NCBI GenBank assembly: GCA_947475165.1
Contig: CANJLD010000030.1
Location: 1 to 33,609 of the forward strand
DNA from: Bacteroidota bacterium
GTDB lineage: Bacteria > Bacteroidota > Bacteroidia > Chitinophagales > LD1
Direction: 5' to 3'
Length of the DNA stretch: 33,609 nucleotides
The translations under genes were made by a program, and so were the position numbers. The number at the start of each line of letters is the position of its first letter. The stretch's first letter is position 1. The notes under the pieces were generated by a model. The model was not told the origin of the DNA. It did not search any database and worked only from the letters and a program-made list of their open reading frames with translations. Positions 1,313 through 25,116 of the stretch are shown here, piece after piece.

Positions 1313-1395
1313 CGTCATTGCGAGCGAAGGTTTCCGAAGCGAAGCAACCCCCGTGTGCAAAAAGGGAGATTGCTTCGCAGAGCCTCGCAATGACG
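1313..1395. repeat. REP-like palindromic element, copy 1
   Basis: This 83-bp element is bounded by a perfect 12-bp inverted repeat (CGTCATTGCGAG at the left, its complement at the right) with a further imperfect stem inside (GAAGCGAAGCAA against TTGCTTCGCAG). It begins 6 bp beyond the stop of the barrel gene and is nearly identical, in the same orientation, to the copy at 2992-3073. Folded, it could act as a 3' mRNA stabiliser or attenuator. The short ORFs running through it are artefacts of the repeat. Confidence 0.9.
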
Positions 1396-1401
1396 ATAAT
1401 G

Positions 1402-3099
1402 TTAAAACGAAAACTTAGCACCAACCCAACCTATAATACCGTAGCTCTGGTAATTGTTCCAGCGTTGATACTTAACGTTAGCGAGGTTGTTGCCCGCCAC
1501 AAAGAAGGAGATATGCTTATTCATGATGTATTCAAATGAAAGGTTCAGGTCGGCAGTGCCTTTCAGTTTCTTTTCCTGTCCGCCAGCCAGCTTTGCATAA
1601 GCACCGGTAATGCCGTATAAATCAAGATTAATCGAAATCTTATTCTTCCAAATGTAATTAGCGCGGAAAGTAAGTTTCAGATTCGGCTCGTGCCAAGCGC
1701 GTGCTTCACGTTTAAGTTGAAATATGTTGTAGTCAGCAAGCACAGAAAAGCGCAGCCACTCTTTTACGTTGTACCCCGCTTCGCCATGAATGCCTAGTGT
1801 GCGCACATTATCATAAATAACCGAAAAGCGTTTCATGTCAAGTGTATCGTTTACATACAAAGGCATATTATCTATATGACCAAAGTGGAACGCCACATTG
1901 TAACTGAAATTCTGAACCGTTCCCTTTAAACCGGAAATCAAATCGCCCACCGGTGTGTTGGTCATAGTCACTGTATCTTCAATAAAATTGTTCGTTTGCG
2001 AATGGGAGAGGAGCGAGTTCTTTTGCAGGTGACGCTCATACGAAGCATAAAGAATAAGCGAATGCTCATACAAACGCTTTTCTACATGAGCATCGGTTAC
2101 AAACACCGGAGTCTTTCCGTTTACAGCCACCCCAATGTAGCCATGCGCTTTCCAATCATCGTTATTAAAACCATAACCCAGCATAGGAGTAAAGATGGTT
2201 CGCGTAAGCGTAACCGTATCATGTTTCAATCTGGAAACATCAAAATAAAACCTCAAACCGGCATAATTATTTTTGAAGAAAGTCTTTTTGATATCGGTAG
2301 TTCCGCTCACTAACCATTCGTTAGCCTTGCCGAAAGTTTCCTGTAAATAATTGAACCGGACAGATTGCTTGAAATCAACTTCGCTTTTGTTCTTCTGTGC
2401 GTTCTTAAAATACACCTCGGCATTATAAGTGCGGAAAACCTGACGCACATTCTTCGCCTTAAATGCGCTATCGGTAATAGTAGTGTCGTTACCAATACCG
2501 TAAAAATGTGTACGGTAATTGCGGAAGGTAAAGTTGGTGCCGAACTCAAACGTCTTAGGGTAATACTTCAGATAAACACCCGCTTCGTCATCAACAAAGC
2601 GCTGGTTCTTCACTTTAAACTCGCGGGCAGATAAGTGATTATAGAAGATGCCGAATTTGAGGTCTTTGGTTTTATTGTCGTTATATGCCAACTGCGCAAT
2701 AGGCATTAACTGACTTCCGAAACCTATCTTGATAAAGCTGTTATTGAACTTCTCCAGCTTTTCCGGTTTCATCGAAAGCGGCTTCAGCGGATTCGCTTCA
2801 AACGTAGCGTCCTTATAATCTTTATTTGGAACCGTGTAAGTAAGCACCGGTTTGGTTTCTTCTACTTCCGGTATGTTGGGTTGTATATTCACCTTCTGCG
2901 CATCCTGAATGGTGGCTTCGTATTCTTTCACTACAATTACTTCTTCTGTGCTTACCTGAGCAAAAGTTTGCAGAAAGCAAAAGAAAACAAACGTCATTGC
3001 GAGCGAAGGTTTCCGTAGCGAAGCAATCTCCAAGCGTAAAGAGGGGATTGCTTCGCAGAGCCTCGCAATGACGTGATTAATATTATTCAGCCCAAGCAT
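1402..3099 (-). CDS. outer-membrane beta-barrel protein
   Basis: The open frame gives 565 residues. After a signal peptide ending in QTFAQ come a short periplasmic region (VIVVKEYEATIQDAQK) and a long run of alternating, aromatic-rich strands ending in WVGAKFSF, the terminal Phe signature of barrel proteins. It resembles TonB-dependent-receptor-like barrels, but no plug domain is apparent. The first 35 codons are mostly a REP-like element (2992-3073) in frame. Two starts are therefore possible: ATG at 3099, which gives a long leader with R29-K30 before the hydrophobic stretch, or ATG at 2997, which lies in the repeat's terminal inverted repeat and gives a signal peptide without a basic n-region. 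The start at 3099 lies 3 nt after the stop of the upstream TPR gene, so translational coupling is likely. Function unknown; a partner of the TPR protein is inferred. Confidence 0.85.
   Translation of the reverse strand: MLGLNNINHVIARLCEAIPSLRLEIASLRKPSLAMTFVFFCFLQTFAQVSTEEVIVVKEYEATIQDAQKVNIQPNIPEVEETKPVLTYTVPNKDYKDATFEANPLKPLSMKPEKLEKFNNSFIKIGFGSQLMPIAQLAYNDNKTKDLKFGIFYNHLSAREFKVKNQRFVDDEAGVYLKYYPKTFEFGTNFTFRNYRTHFYGIGNDTTITDSAFKAKNVRQVFRTYNAEVYFKNAQKNKSEVDFKQSVRFNYLQETFGKANEWLVSGTTDIKKTFFKNNYAGLRFYFDVSRLKHDTVTLTRTIFTPMLGYGFNNDDWKAHGYIGVAVNGKTPVFVTDAHVEKRLYEHSLILYASYERHLQKNSLLSHSQTNNFIEDTVTMTNTPVGDLISGLKGTVQNFSYNVAFHFGHIDNMPLYVNDTLDMKRFSVIYDNVRTLGIHGEAGYNVKEWLRFSVLADYNIFQLKREARAWHEPNLKLTFRANYIWKNKISINLDLYGITGAYAKLAGGQEKKLKGTADLNLSFEYIMNKHISFFVAGNNLANVKYQRWNNYQSYGIIGWVGAKFSF
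2992..3073. repeat. REP-like palindromic element, copy 2, inside a coding region
   Basis: This 82-bp copy has the same perfect 12-bp terminal inverted repeat (CGTCATTGCGAG) and inner stem as copy 1 at 1313-1395. It overlaps the first codons of the barrel gene and is read through in frame as roughly residues 9-36. The complement of its left end supplies the internal ATG at 2997. Confidence 0.9.
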
Positions 3100-3102
3100 C
3101 CT

Positions 3103-6100
3103 TTAGTTTTTAAGTATTGAATCCTGTTCCATAATCAAAGTATCTCCGGGAAGAATCTGCATAATCTTCGATTGCTTTAATTCTTCACTATTTATCGTTT
3201 CAAGTTTTGTTTTTGCTTCCTCAAGCACAGCTTTGTCGCCATCGTAATTCTCTACTATACTTTCCAACGTAGCCTTTGCCTGAAAAGTGTTTCCCTGCGC
3301 GTAATAGTTATCGGCAATCAGTATAAATGTTTTAGCAATCCAGAATTCGTAACTGCTGTAACGGTTCTTTAATTTGAAACAAGTGTCGAGTGAGTTCTTA
3401 TACTTCTGCTGCTCGTAAAGAATTCTTGCTACCATATATTTTGCCTCTACCGCTTTTACACTAACCGGCATTTCGGTTACGCGATTGAAAGCACCGAGCG
3501 CAAACTCTTTATTGCCTTTGCTGTAATAGGCTTTGCCTTTTTCAAAAATAGCTTCCTGCAAGTCCGCATCTTTGGCGGCACCGGAGTTAATAAACTGGTC
3601 TGCATACTCAATTATTTCATCGGTGCTGTTTAGTTTAACGGCTGTGCGCAGCGAGCCAATCATAGCGGTGTAAGTATTCTGTGCCGATGTACTCGCGATA
3701 TACAGTTGTTTGTAGAAAGTATTTGCTTTGGCGTAATCTTTCAGCTCATAGTAAGCAATACCCGATGCCTTGAGCAATGCCTTCTCGTAATACTTGCTGT
3801 ATTTGTTTTGAATAATGGCTTCGTAATCGGGTAAAGCCTTCAGAAATTCCTTTGCGCGTATGTGACAGTCAGCTTTCTTCCAGTGCGCTTCATTTGCAAA
3901 GAAACCGTTAGGGAACCTCGAAACATAATTGCCAAACAGGATAATAGCGCGGGTAGTATCATTACTGCTGTAAGCATTTTCAGCAGCCTGATAAGAAAGC
4001 GAATCTTCTTCCGATGAACTGATGTTGATGTTTGAATTGCCTTTGGCAAATGCAAAATATTCATCCACTCGTCCCAACTCTACATAAATATCTTTCAATG
4101 CCTCCAATGCTTCTTTCGCCTCACGCGATTCAGGAAATTTCTTCACCACCAATTTGTAATCGTCAATTGCTTGTTCTTTCTTACCGGTGTTGTAATCAAT
4201 CACGCCAATCTTCACATACGCTTTAGGCAGGTAAGCGTTGTTTGTATTCTTATTGATGATAGTTTGATAAGCAGTGCGTGCATGAGCGTTGTCGCCCAGT
4301 TGCAAATAAGTTTCACCCAATTCGAAGTTGGCTTGGTCGGCATAATTAGAGCCGGGGAACTTTGAATTCAACTCTTGTAATGCAACAACTTTCTCCTCGT
4401 CTTTGTTTTGCAAACCAAGAATGATTGCTTTTTGAAACTGCGCATACTCCGCGTTGCTCCAATTCATCGCAACAATTTTTGCATAGGCTGCAACAGCAGT
4501 GCTGTAATCTTTAGTAATGAAAGCACAATCGGCAAAGCGCAAAAACAAATCGGGCAGAAGAGAAGTCTTTCCTTTTGAATCAACCGTAGTTTTAGATTCA
4601 TCAATAGCGTTGCCGAAATACAAAGCGGCATCAGCATAATTTTTCTTCTTGAAAGAGCAATAACCCAAATTGTAACTGGCGCGAAACTTTGTTGCTTCTC
4701 CTTTCTTCTCCAATGCCGGTGTAGAATATTGCGCAAACAGGCGATATTGTTGCGCAGCCTCATCATATCTTTCTTTACTGTAAAGAATTTCAGCTTTTAG
4801 GTAAATGGCGAGTGCCTGCAACTCTACATTTAAAGGATTCTTTAACGACTTATTACAAAGCGAAAGTGCTTCATCGGTTTTCTTATCATTAAACAATTCT
4901 ACAGCACGGAAATAAGTAACCTTCTGATACGCTTGCTTTATAAGTGCGCTTTCGGTTTTCATGCCCTCCATTATTTTGTATGCACGCTCGTAATTCTTTG
5001 TTTGTGTAAGAGCAGCCGCTAACAACTCATTGGTTTCATCAATATGGTCACCGGTGGGGTATTTATCTAAATAGGTTTCGAAACTCTGAATGGCTTCGCT
5101 GCTGTAACCTAACTCAAACGAAAGTTTTCCATAACTAAAAAGCGATTGCTGTTTAATCGTCTCGTCAAAATCTTTACTGGCTGCACTCTGGAAAGCACTA
5201 TGTGCTTTATCTTTCTGTCCAAGTTTTAAATAACAATCTGCCATAGCATAAGTGGCGTTCTGTCCAAGCTTTTCATCAAGCACATTCAACTGCTTAAAAT
5301 TGTCAATCGCTTTCTGATAATCGCTATTCATGTAAGCACAATAACCCAATTGGTAGATATCTTCCTTGCTGACCTTTGATGATTTGCTGATGTAATCATT
5401 TAAGAGCGGGTATGCCTTGGTATAATCACTCTTCTGAAAATAACACTTGCCGAGGAGGAATTTCATTTCCTCTTTATATAACACTCCAGGCTTGTCCAGG
5501 TTTTTCTTTACATAAGTTATAACCTGGTCGTAATCTTTTTTGATGTAATAAATCTGCGCTATGTAATATGGTATGACCGGTGCATACATTTTCGAATCTT
5601 CAATCTTGCTGAAACTCTTCAGTGCTTCGTTATAGTCCTTGGTATAAAAACAAATAAACGCGTAGTAGTAAGTAGCGGGATAGAAATACTTGTCCTGAAT
5701 ATCTTTTATAGAAGCAAACAGCGGCTTGGCTTCGGTAAACTTCTTCTTGGTGAAATACGAATACGCCAGCATGAATTTGTAATCGTAAATCTGCTCGTTG
5801 TTTAAATCATCTGTCTTTATCTTGGTTAGATATTCAATGGCATCGCCATAGCGGTTGTTCTTGTAATAGTATTTGCCCAGATAGAAATAATTCAGCCTGC
5901 GCTTATCGGTTTCATGATATTTCTTGTAATAACCTAACAGCAACTGCTCGGCATCTTTATCGTTGGTTTCGGTGGCACAAACAGCAATGTAGTATTCGAG
6001 GTTCTGCATCATCACTTCGTTGTTATGCGAAGTGGCAGTTTTAGGTTGCTTATAAATTTCTTCAAACTTCTCACGCGCACTTAAGTAGTTCTTCTCATCA

Positions 6101-6219
6101 AAAAGTTCAAGACCGTTTTTGAAGGTGGCTTCTTTATCTATATATAGTTGTGTTTGCTGCGCGTGGGCAGTAAATAGTAAATAGTAAATAGTAAATAGAG
6201 AGAATATCCGCTTACGCAC
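3103..6219 (-). CDS. large secreted tetratricopeptide repeat protein
   Basis: The 1038-residue protein starts with a signal peptide (basic MRKR, hydrophobic core, probable cleavage at AHA/QQ) and then consists almost wholly of TPR-type helical pairs. Many units show the YxxG/A...A...Y pattern, for example YNLGYCSFKKKNYADAALYF and FELGETYLQLGDNAHARTAY. No enzyme domain is seen. Large periplasmic TPR proteins next to a barrel and a HU/SPOR gene fit a scaffold or assembly role in the cell envelope; that role is inferred. The barrel gene starts 3 nt downstream. The hydrophobic core of the signal peptide is encoded by four copies of a 7-bp repeat (6171-6198), so copy number changes would shift the frame. 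Confidence 0.85.
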   Translation of the reverse strand: MRKRIFSLFTIYYLLFTAHAQQTQLYIDKEATFKNGLELFDEKNYLSAREKFEEIYKQPKTATSHNNEVMMQNLEYYIAVCATETNDKDAEQLLLGYYKKYHETDKRRLNYFYLGKYYYKNNRYGDAIEYLTKIKTDDLNNEQIYDYKFMLAYSYFTKKKFTEAKPLFASIKDIQDKYFYPATYYYAFICFYTKDYNEALKSFSKIEDSKMYAPVIPYYIAQIYYIKKDYDQVITYVKKNLDKPGVLYKEEMKFLLGKCYFQKSDYTKAYPLLNDYISKSSKVSKEDIYQLGYCAYMNSDYQKAIDNFKQLNVLDEKLGQNATYAMADCYLKLGQKDKAHSAFQSAASKDFDETIKQQSLFSYGKLSFELGYSSEAIQSFETYLDKYPTGDHIDETNELLAAALTQTKNYERAYKIMEGMKTESALIKQAYQKVTYFRAVELFNDKKTDEALSLCNKSLKNPLNVELQALAIYLKAEILYSKERYDEAAQQYRLFAQYSTPALEKKGEATKFRASYNLGYCSFKKKNYADAALYFGNAIDESKTTVDSKGKTSLLPDLFLRFADCAFITKDYSTAVAAYAKIVAMNWSNAEYAQFQKAIILGLQNKDEEKVVALQELNSKFPGSNYADQANFELGETYLQLGDNAHARTAYQTIINKNTNNAYLPKAYVKIGVIDYNTGKKEQAIDDYKLVVKKFPESREAKEALEALKDIYVELGRVDEYFAFAKGNSNINISSSEEDSLSYQAAENAYSSNDTTRAIILFGNYVSRFPNGFFANEAHWKKADCHIRAKEFLKALPDYEAIIQNKYSKYYEKALLKASGIAYYELKDYAKANTFYKQLYIASTSAQNTYTAMIGSLRTAVKLNSTDEIIEYADQFINSGAAKDADLQEAIFEKGKAYYSKGNKEFALGAFNRVTEMPVSVKAVEAKYMVARILYEQQKYKNSLDTCFKLKNRYSSYEFWIAKTFILIADNYYAQGNTFQAKATLESIVENYDGDKAVLEEAKTKLETINSEELKQSKIMQILPGDTLIMEQDSILKN
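6171..6198. repeat. heptanucleotide repeat TAAATAG x4
   Basis: Four perfect copies of TAAATAG lie inside the signal-peptide codons of the leftward TPR gene. Read on the minus strand they encode the core LFTIYYLLFT. Seven is not a multiple of three, so gain or loss of one unit breaks the frame close to the start codon. Confidence 0.95.
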
Positions 6220-19391: not shown

Positions 19392-19420
19392 CATTGCGAG
19401 GCTCTGCGAAGCAATCCCCT
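19392..19420. repeat. half REP-like element
   Basis: These 29 bases are identical to the complement of the right arm of the element at 2992-3073 (CATTGCGAGGCTCTGCGAAG and onward to CCCCT). The other arm is missing. It lies between converging genes. Confidence 0.85.
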
Positions 19421-20527: not shown

Positions 20528-20588
20528 GAAAATCTTTTTGTAGGGTAAAGATATAAACGCAAACGAAGTAAGCAATCTGGAATCTGGA

Positions 20589-20612
20589 GTTGTTGGTGAT
20601 AACACCAACAAC
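20589..20612. repeat. palindromic element, perfect 10-bp stem
   Basis: GTTGTTGGTG, loop ATAA, CACCAACAAC. It lies between the hydrolase stop (20621) and the Cys-rich lipoprotein start (20527). The left arm, loop and most of the right arm recur inside recF at 24241-24262. Confidence 0.85.
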
Positions 20613-20620
20613 GGCTTTGT

Positions 20621-23976: not shown

Positions 23977-25116
23977 ATGTTTCTGAGTAAAATCACCCTT
24001 CTTAACTTCAAAAACCACGAATCGCTTTCGCTTACTTTCTCGAAGAAAATTAATTGTTTTATAGGCAACAATGGTGTAGGTAAAACCAATATTGTTGATG
24101 CAGTTTATTATCTCTGCTTAACTAAAAGCTATTTCAATTCGATTGACCAGCAGAATATTTTGTTCGGAAGAGATTTTTTTCGATTGGAAGGTAGGTTTAA
24201 AAGAACCGCAGGGTACCGAGGCGGAGACCCTGCGGGGACAGTTGTTGGTGATAACACCAACACCGGCACCGATGCGTTTGAAATTGTTTACAAGTTGCCA
24301 ACTAATAAACGCAAAGAACTTTTAGTAAACGATGTTGTAGTGCCAAAGTTAAGCGACCACATCGGTAACTTTCCCTGCATTATTATTTCACCGGACGATA
24401 GCCAATTGATACTCGGAAGCAGTGAGGAGCGGAGAAAGTTTTTGGACGGAACTATTTCACAAATCAATCACGAATACTTGGAATGGCTGATTACTTACAA
24501 TAAGGTGTTGGCGCAACGCAACGCTGCTCTAAAGCGTTTTGCAGAAACCAAGAAAACCGATAAGCATCTTTTAGAAACTTATGACAGCCAACTAATTCCT
24601 TTAGGAACAAAAATATATGAAGCAAGAAAAATAGTGATGCATAAATTGCAACCTATCTTTAAAAAATTTTATAAGGAAATAAGTTTGGAAAGAGAACCGG
24701 TGAGTTTTAGTTATTACTCACAGTTGAACGAAAAGCCTTTTGATGTATTGCTGGAGAATAGTTTGAACAGAGATGTAATGTTACAGCGCACCGATGTTGG
24801 AGTGCATAAGGACGATATGGAATTTTTTCTAGGTGCAAACAAGATGAAGAAATTCGGTTCTCAAGGGCAGCAGAAGAGTTTTATAATCTCTATGAAGTTT
24901 GCGCAATACGAACTTATTGCGCAGAGCAAACAGTTTAAACCCGTTTTATTGATTGATGATATTTTCGACAAACTGGATAACGATAGAAGTCAGAAACTGA
25001 TTGAGTTAATTGCATCTAACAACTTCGGTCAAATATTTCTCACCGATACCGATGACGCGCACATTCGCCAAACGCTTAAAGGAAGAGAGGATTTGTTTGA
25101 AGTGATTAATGTGTAA
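23977..25116 (+). CDS. recF: DNA replication and repair protein RecF
   Basis: RecF helps load RecA at gaps during recombinational repair. The correct start is ATG 23977 (MFLSKITLLNFKNHESL), giving 379 residues; the frame remains open upstream on the pdhA opposite strand, but those 63 residues are not RecF. The Walker A motif is GNNGVGKTN (30-38), the signature GSQGQQKSF and Walker B LLIDDIFDKLD are near the C-terminus. Between FKR (74-76) and DAFEIVYKLP, residues about 77-98 (GYRGGDPAG, then VVGDNTNTG) are not part of the family pattern and coincide with two palindromes (24206-24264). The insertion leaves the frame intact. Confidence 0.93.
   Translation: MFLSKITLLNFKNHESLSLTFSKKINCFIGNNGVGKTNIVDAVYYLCLTKSYFNSIDQQNILFGRDFFRLEGRFKRTAGYRGGDPAGTVVGDNTNTGTDAFEIVYKLPTNKRKELLVNDVVVPKLSDHIGNFPCIIISPDDSQLILGSSEERRKFLDGTISQINHEYLEWLITYNKVLAQRNAALKRFAETKKTDKHLLETYDSQLIPLGTKIYEARKIVMHKLQPIFKKFYKEISLEREPVSFSYYSQLNEKPFDVLLENSLNRDVMLQRTDVGVHKDDMEFFLGANKMKKFGSQGQQKSFIISMKFAQYELIAQSKQFKPVLLIDDIFDKLDNDRSQKLIELIASNNFGQIFLTDTDDAHIRQTLKGREDLFEVINV
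24206..24264. repeat. double palindromic insertion in recF
   Basis: The first hairpin is CCGCAGGGT (24206-24214) with ACCCTGCGG (24227-24235), with an inner CCG/CGG stem. The second is TGTTGGTG (24243-24250), loop ATAA, CACCAACA (24255-24262). The second is shared with 20589-20612. The segment lies in frame in recF and is absent from the usual family sequence. Confidence 0.85.

Follow-up and report, generated by a model that had tools for sequence, protein, structure and literature searches.

A minus-strand gene at positions 1402 to 3099 of the window (the whole 33,609-nt stretch of DNA analyzed here), whose 565-residue product is by inference an outer-membrane barrel, carries an 82-bp REP-like palindrome within the region encoding its signal peptide. 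The repeat (2992 to 3073, minus strand) lies in frame and free of stop codons between the native start and the hydrophobic core, and the gene downstream of it is intact and conserved. As the best reading, we infer that repeats near stop codons land, in tight operons, on the signal peptide of the next gene, which tolerates them. The explanation as a whole, in which a REP-like dimer sits in a native signal peptide, translation still starts at 3099, predicted export is kept, and the packed operon accounts for the placement, appears likely from the sequence comparisons described below.

The 82-bp element is a REP-like dimer of two CGTC-tagged halves in inverted orientation. Its inverted ends form perfect 13-nt arms (2991 to 3003 and 3062 to 3074), with a further inner pair of 14 nt. 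The region from 2985 to 3080 folds at -42.6 kcal/mol, compared with a mean of -21.2 for shuffled sequences (z of -6.6), and none of 200 shuffles was equally stable. CGTC faces outward at both ends, and the first four columns were invariant or at least 90% conserved among 24 aligned copies. The half-element reads CGTC-ATTGC...GCAAT-CCC, and six 40-nt halves from three copies folded weakly and variably. A 12-mer from the arm occurs four times in the window with at most one mismatch, compared with 0.10 occurrences expected, and has 75 exact matches in the 3.88-Mb genome, compared with none for a backward-read control. A covariance model built from 24 copies gave 72 genome hits, with many copies counted on both strands; counted as copies with the exact arm, the repeat is present at least 56 times. 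The palindrome that an earlier note had placed across the first codons of the barrel gene is therefore real by its length, its fold, and its genome-wide copies. High copy number, dispersal, and inverted dimers are traits of CGTC-tagged REPs, and the terminal inverted repeats formed by the perfect arms are a trait of MITEs. Within the window, Rfam gave no match at gathering thresholds. A second copy, differing in sequence from the first, lies at 1313 to 1395 (minus strand), 6 nt past the barrel-gene stop, which is the usual place for this repeat. A partial copy of 29 nt, inverted relative to one arm, was also seen at 19392 to 19420.

The barrel protein matched no Pfam or NCBIfam family. Its open reading frame, from 3099 to 1402, passes through the element without a stop. 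The element occupies codons 9 to 36 and adds 27 codons, which read V-I-A-R-L-C-E-A-I-P-S-L-R-L-E-I-A-S-L-R-K-P-S-L-A-M-T and include the basic residues R13, R22, R29, and K30; the leader with Arg29-Lys30 proposed in the earlier note is thus present in the translation. Ahead of the element are the native start codon (ATG at 3097 to 3099, minus strand) and the native n-region codons (MLGLNNIN and part of H9, 3074 to 3099, minus strand), which encode no Lys or Arg. Behind it are the native hydrophobic core and cleavage region, FVFFCFLQTFA followed by Q (2959 to 2991, minus strand), and this segment is as free of basic residues as had been claimed. About 530 codons downstream of the element are intact. 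The start codon lies 3 nt past the stop of the upstream gene, which encodes a TPR-repeat protein (3103 to 6219, minus strand) that would be exported, judging from its own N-terminus. The hydropathy and charge of the long forms resemble those of signal peptides with long n-regions.

Matches to the barrel protein were found in 56 of 60 genomes, the source genome included, with the match in G001 consisting of the repeat alone. The N-termini of 25 family genes, again including that of the source genome, were read by eye. An ordinary-length signal peptide is encoded by 21 of the 25, with a start that lies no more than about 10 nt from the TPR-gene stop or overlaps it. The closest orthologue (G017, 84% identical) has no repeat and begins MFGLKHKMLLSVAMLFVATGIFAQ, and its ATG is 3 nt past the upstream stop. 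Because this orthologue is repeat-free and colinear with MLGLNNIN... at 3099, the original start was kept and the repeat lies inside the signal-peptide coding region. The alignment of relatives thus shows the native form of the signal peptide, M-F-G-L in G017 being colinear with M-L-G-L here, and contradicts the proposal in the earlier note that the original start had been replaced. The G017 signal peptide also contains GCAATG..GTTTGTT, in which 13 of 15 positions are identical to the end of the repeat and the bases that follow it; the A-M at the junction may therefore belong to the native gene or have arisen by convergence, which leaves the right edge of the element uncertain. At least one Lys or Arg precedes the core or the insertion in all 24 other genes, whereas the source-genome gene has none outside the repeat. 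Because the native n-region of this gene alone (1 of 25) is without Lys and Arg, the repeat-encoded R13, R22, R29, and K30 probably supply the positive charge of the n-region. The sequence supports the earlier note in that the repeat would belong to an export signal and probably gives it a positive n-region.

Inserts from other repeats were found at the same place in the barrel genes of other genomes. G015 and G016 have a common insert, from another repeat family, in the same signal peptide, and each of their proteins exceeds the insert-free protein of G004 by 53 residues. When 136 bases of this insert were used as a query, 14 of 18 genus genomes gave matches (E ≤ 0.001; both carriers included), most of which were partial. 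The gene of G010 has a third insert, a composite of two repeat sequences, which makes the protein 43 residues longer; these sequences recur, whole or in part, in 8 of the 18 genus genomes, the carrier included. All of these inserts lie in frame between the native start and the core. The G015 and G016 genes differ at 42% of synonymous sites, yet both keep the in-frame insert. In the first 140 bases of the gene (L033 and L035), the insert region is 98 to 100% identical between the two genomes and the surrounding gene mostly 83 to 95%. G004 is without the insert although its gene is nearer to that of G015 than that of G016 is along much of its length, and transfer or loss therefore complicates the counting of the G015/G016 insert. 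Judging from these identities, local exchange or loss must have happened at this locus. As far as these alignments go, repeat insertion in the barrel signal peptide is recurrent and not a one-off.

The repeat could instead have supplied a new start, as the earlier note had offered as an alternative. Translation would then begin at the ATG in the terminal arm (2995 to 2997, minus strand), and the part of the repeat upstream of it would stay untranslated, perhaps acting as a hairpin in RNA control. We consider this unlikely. The ATG exists as the note had described and is in the correct frame, and in several species most REPs at ORF 5' ends may be noncoding according to the passages of Di Nocera et al. 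2013 on this point (PMC3733652), which warn that many REPs at the N-termini of ORFs may be untranslated. However, its use as a start is disfavored. The codon lies inside the stem, with an unpaired probability of 0.00 in three fold windows, and the product MTFVFFCFLQTFAQ would have a 13-residue signal with no basic residue at all. Mean unpaired probability was 0.48 to 0.54 for the start at 3099, compared with 0.23 for that at 2997, the start codon at 3099 being itself partly paired (0.06 to 0.53). The native start is retained 3 nt past the upstream stop, and the G015/G016 barrel insert, like an insert in a G015 lipoprotein described below, gives no ATG directly before the core. The G010 insert is an exception to this last point, with in-frame ATGs of which one is near the core.

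It seems improbable that the insertion has abolished export of the protein, or is in the course of doing so, and that the barrel gene is becoming a pseudogene. Expression or export could suffer from the strong hairpin near the start and from an n-region of such unusual length. However, the downstream codons are intact, basic residues are present, and G015 and G016 both retain an in-frame insert in the same place despite their synonymous divergence. In addition, dN/dS against G017 was 0.055 (alignment column 100 onward), a value that mixes time before and after the insertion and was obtained with a near-saturated dS of 1.51. With dS near saturation, the comparison argues that the gene overall is under purifying selection. 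An assembly or binning artifact of the metagenome-derived genome is very improbable: six related records are metagenome assemblies, and repeats are where assemblies fail, but the end of the upstream gene and the mature part match relatives on both flanks of the repeat, the two copies in the window differ in sequence, and the same gene in other genomes has insertions of other repeats.

Copies of the window repeat that have an exact arm (n = 56) were surveyed against mechanically called ORFs of at least 110 amino acids, with partial overlaps scored as outside. Five copies lie inside such ORFs, one of them in a doubtful 123-residue ORF in L012 that is probably spurious. The four clear cases are the barrel gene, a TonB-receptor-like gene, a methyltransferase, and an MMPL-family transporter. 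Signal peptides account for two of the four; a fair figure is one of three, the window gene being preselected. The TonB-receptor-like gene of the source genome, in which a Plug domain scored just above the cutoff, reads MFKKYNT[repeat]LLFSCCAFSFAQ, the same repeat splitting its signal peptide. The insert is present in 1 of 20 orthologues and absent from the 19 others read; repeat-free forms are MFKKFFFIALSLLVYTISFAQ in G017 and MFKKVIFFSISLLISAVAFAQ in G001. The receptor insertion has the same arrangement of A-M-T followed by hydrophobic residues as the barrel gene, which is a point in favor of a start supplied by the repeat. In the methyltransferase (L080, 1076 to 1828, source genome), the same repeat is in frame in the middle of the gene; the orthologues read are without the insert and mostly align as two adjacent pieces flanking it. 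The insert in the MMPL-family transporter is common to the source genome and G001.

Repeats of other families were surveyed in 71 selected copies rather than in all hits, of which 46 lie outside ORFs of at least 80 amino acids. A PBP-like lipoprotein, for which N-termini were seen at 13 of 14 loci, has a repeat in its signal peptide in G015 and ordinary signal peptides in G004, G016, and G017. The bases, read by eye, show that the G015 start overlaps the upstream stop. In the lipoprotein gene of G006, a CCCTTTAGGG-type repeat lies between the core and a start in common with the repeat-free G014. The pattern of this repeat had 68 matches in G011, 31 in G014, 6 in G006, and 4 in G013 and none in nine other genomes; its backward control gave none in all 13. 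In G011, repeats fill about 150 codons of the upstream frame with no clear start, which suggests an untranslated 5' region there and fits the untranslated role that a new start would imply for the barrel repeat. The G011 and G013 lipoproteins were dropped as cases, the former for its missing start and the latter for having only similar sequence.

Searches for further cases were also made across the family. Among the matches listed for a repeat-peptide profile, large stop-free frames were found in the window gene, the receptor, the methyltransferase, and the G001 MMPL-like gene; the leads in G001:C35, G001:C118, and G000:C1 were not kept after their ORF lists were read. Extra N-terminal hits of the window protein in G000:C3, G000:C10, and G001:C25 proved from ORF lists to be repeats at gene 3' ends or intergenic. 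A DNA pattern joining the end of the repeat to four hydrophobic codons matched in 22 of 30 family genomes. No further case emerged from the 30 listed loci or from three more in the source genome, most of which were spacers or unrelated codons.

The reading frames of the window repeat were analyzed in 24 copies in both orientations (n = 48). The frame ending A-M-T was open in 40 of the 48, with a mean net charge of +2.45, and the frame ending R-N-D in 35, with a mean net charge of +0.23. The third was nearly always stopped (open in 1 of 48). One of the two passable frames is cationic, as an n-region requires, and it is this A-M-T frame that is used in both signal-peptide insertions of the window repeat and in the methyltransferase insertion. 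If the barrel gene is translated from the native ATG at 3099, the n-region of its preprotein would exceed the normal length by about 27 residues, the native core and the cleavage site TFA/Q would still be recognized by Sec and signal peptidase, and the insertion would leave the mature protein as it was. Lysines would have been lost from the native n-region (GLKHK in the relative, GLNNI here), with the repeat-encoded Arg and Lys now giving the positive charge. A broader proposal can be made tentatively, with less than even confidence: n-regions at spacer-free operon junctions may be a general niche for REP-like elements, and the source-genome outer-membrane protein may need its REP-encoded Arg and Lys for export, so that a selfish or neutral repeat would have become an essential targeting segment.

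The placement of the repeat was compared with gene ends. Of the 56 copies, 51 lie outside ORFs; of these 51, a gene 3' end is no more than 60 nt away in 36 cases and no more than 10 nt away in 27, and the corresponding counts for 5' ends are 19 and 4. The same bias to the 3' side of genes is described for REPs in the corresponding passages of Di Nocera et al. (PMC3733652). The two signal-peptide copies of the window repeat are 29 and 52 nt from the upstream stop. Repeats would usually settle past a stop codon, at most some tens of bases from it, and at a spacer-free operon junction this position would fall on approximately codons 6 to 15 of the next gene. Where that gene has a signal peptide, an in-frame and stop-free insertion would cost no function and would be retained. 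The TPR gene, whose upstream spacer in the window is 383 nt, served as a control. No obvious inserts were seen in 18 genes, the source genome included, with the long open upstream frames of G007, G005, and G002 left outside the repeat search. This result agrees with the idea that close packing of genes is needed for the usual site of the repeat to coincide with a signal peptide. The suggested packed-operon niche draws on three signal-peptide genes, the first of which was preselected by its insertion.

In-frame palindromes in conserved protein genes are known from the Rickettsia palindromic elements (Ogata et al. 2000, 2002, as described in passages of PMC2229807, PMC3733652, and PMC10969869). 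Two of these, RPE-4 and RPE-6, correspond to CGTC-tagged repeats, and for one Rickettsia enzyme with an in-frame palindromic repeat both production and activity were demonstrated (PMC2229807). The window repeat is similar in being in frame in otherwise conserved genes (barrel, receptor, methyltransferase, and MMPL-like transporter). It differs in its host, a member of another phylum (Bacteroidota), and in that several of the cases here are in signal peptides beside tight operon junctions; we found no report of Rickettsia palindromic elements in signal peptides in the open-license literature. The CGTC-tagged REP superfamily, reported in five phyla including Bacteroidetes, has CGTC ends and inverted dimers that are mostly 3' of genes and in some cases intragenic (passages of Di Nocera et al. 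2013, PMC3733652). The window repeat shares the CGTC ends, the inverted dimer, and the mostly 3' location. The REP form has a stem of 8 to 9 bp that starts with AT, a loop of 4 to 5 nt, and a tail near CCA (PMC3733652); in the weak and variable folds of the six half-elements, no clean stem and loop of this kind was evident. Where that paper mentions signal, its passages do not treat signal peptides.

The predicted signal peptide of Yersinia YPO1552 is partly made by the RU-2 repeat, a MITE (Delihas 2007, PMC2759123). In the available part of the paper, that example is described in detail for a single locus, and the repeat concerned has many hydrophobic residues. In the present case, the repeat lengthens the n-region while the native start and core remain, and more than one gene and several repeat families are concerned. 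Autotransporters have extended signal peptide regions, with a long n-region of conserved host sequence before an ordinary Sec core. The barrel protein resembles them in the long n-region and differs in that the extension is an inserted repeat. In-frame palindromic repeats and, from the portions of these papers available, one MITE-derived signal peptide were thus already known, and no report of recurrent repeat insertion in signal peptides was found among titles and abstract openings of the open-license literature.

If the preferred reading, a repeat held within a native signal peptide, is true, it yields a simple rule, which could be tried on any genome rich in repeats, for the harmless entry of noncoding repeats into proteins: in a tight operon, they enter through the next gene's export signal, a segment that can be removed. 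Insertions that arose naturally, and for which relatives have an empty site, would be a test of how far lengthening of the n-region is tolerated by Sec export and of whether repeat-encoded charge becomes necessary. For annotators, a repeat at an N-terminus would then not always be the sign of a wrong start call.

Several other repeat-associated features were observed. A GH3-family gene (Pfam on L283) has an in-frame repeat-encoded segment common to G015, G016, and G001 (L283, L282, and L289), and candidate in-frame repeat segments were seen in an MBOAT-family gene (Pfam) and in a G004:C26 gene with no Pfam family. At the contig edge, positions 1 to 192 of the window form a tandem repeat with a 42-bp period; there are four copies, of which the last is 64% alike. 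Di Nocera et al. 2013 (PMC3733652) note, in passages on this point, that numerous REPs lie inside repair genes. In the window, recF has another in-frame repeat insert, GYRGGDPAGTVVGDNTNTG, at 24206 to 24267, and three solved RecF sequences have a 17-residue gap at this site. The second half of the recF insert recurs at 20588 to 20615.
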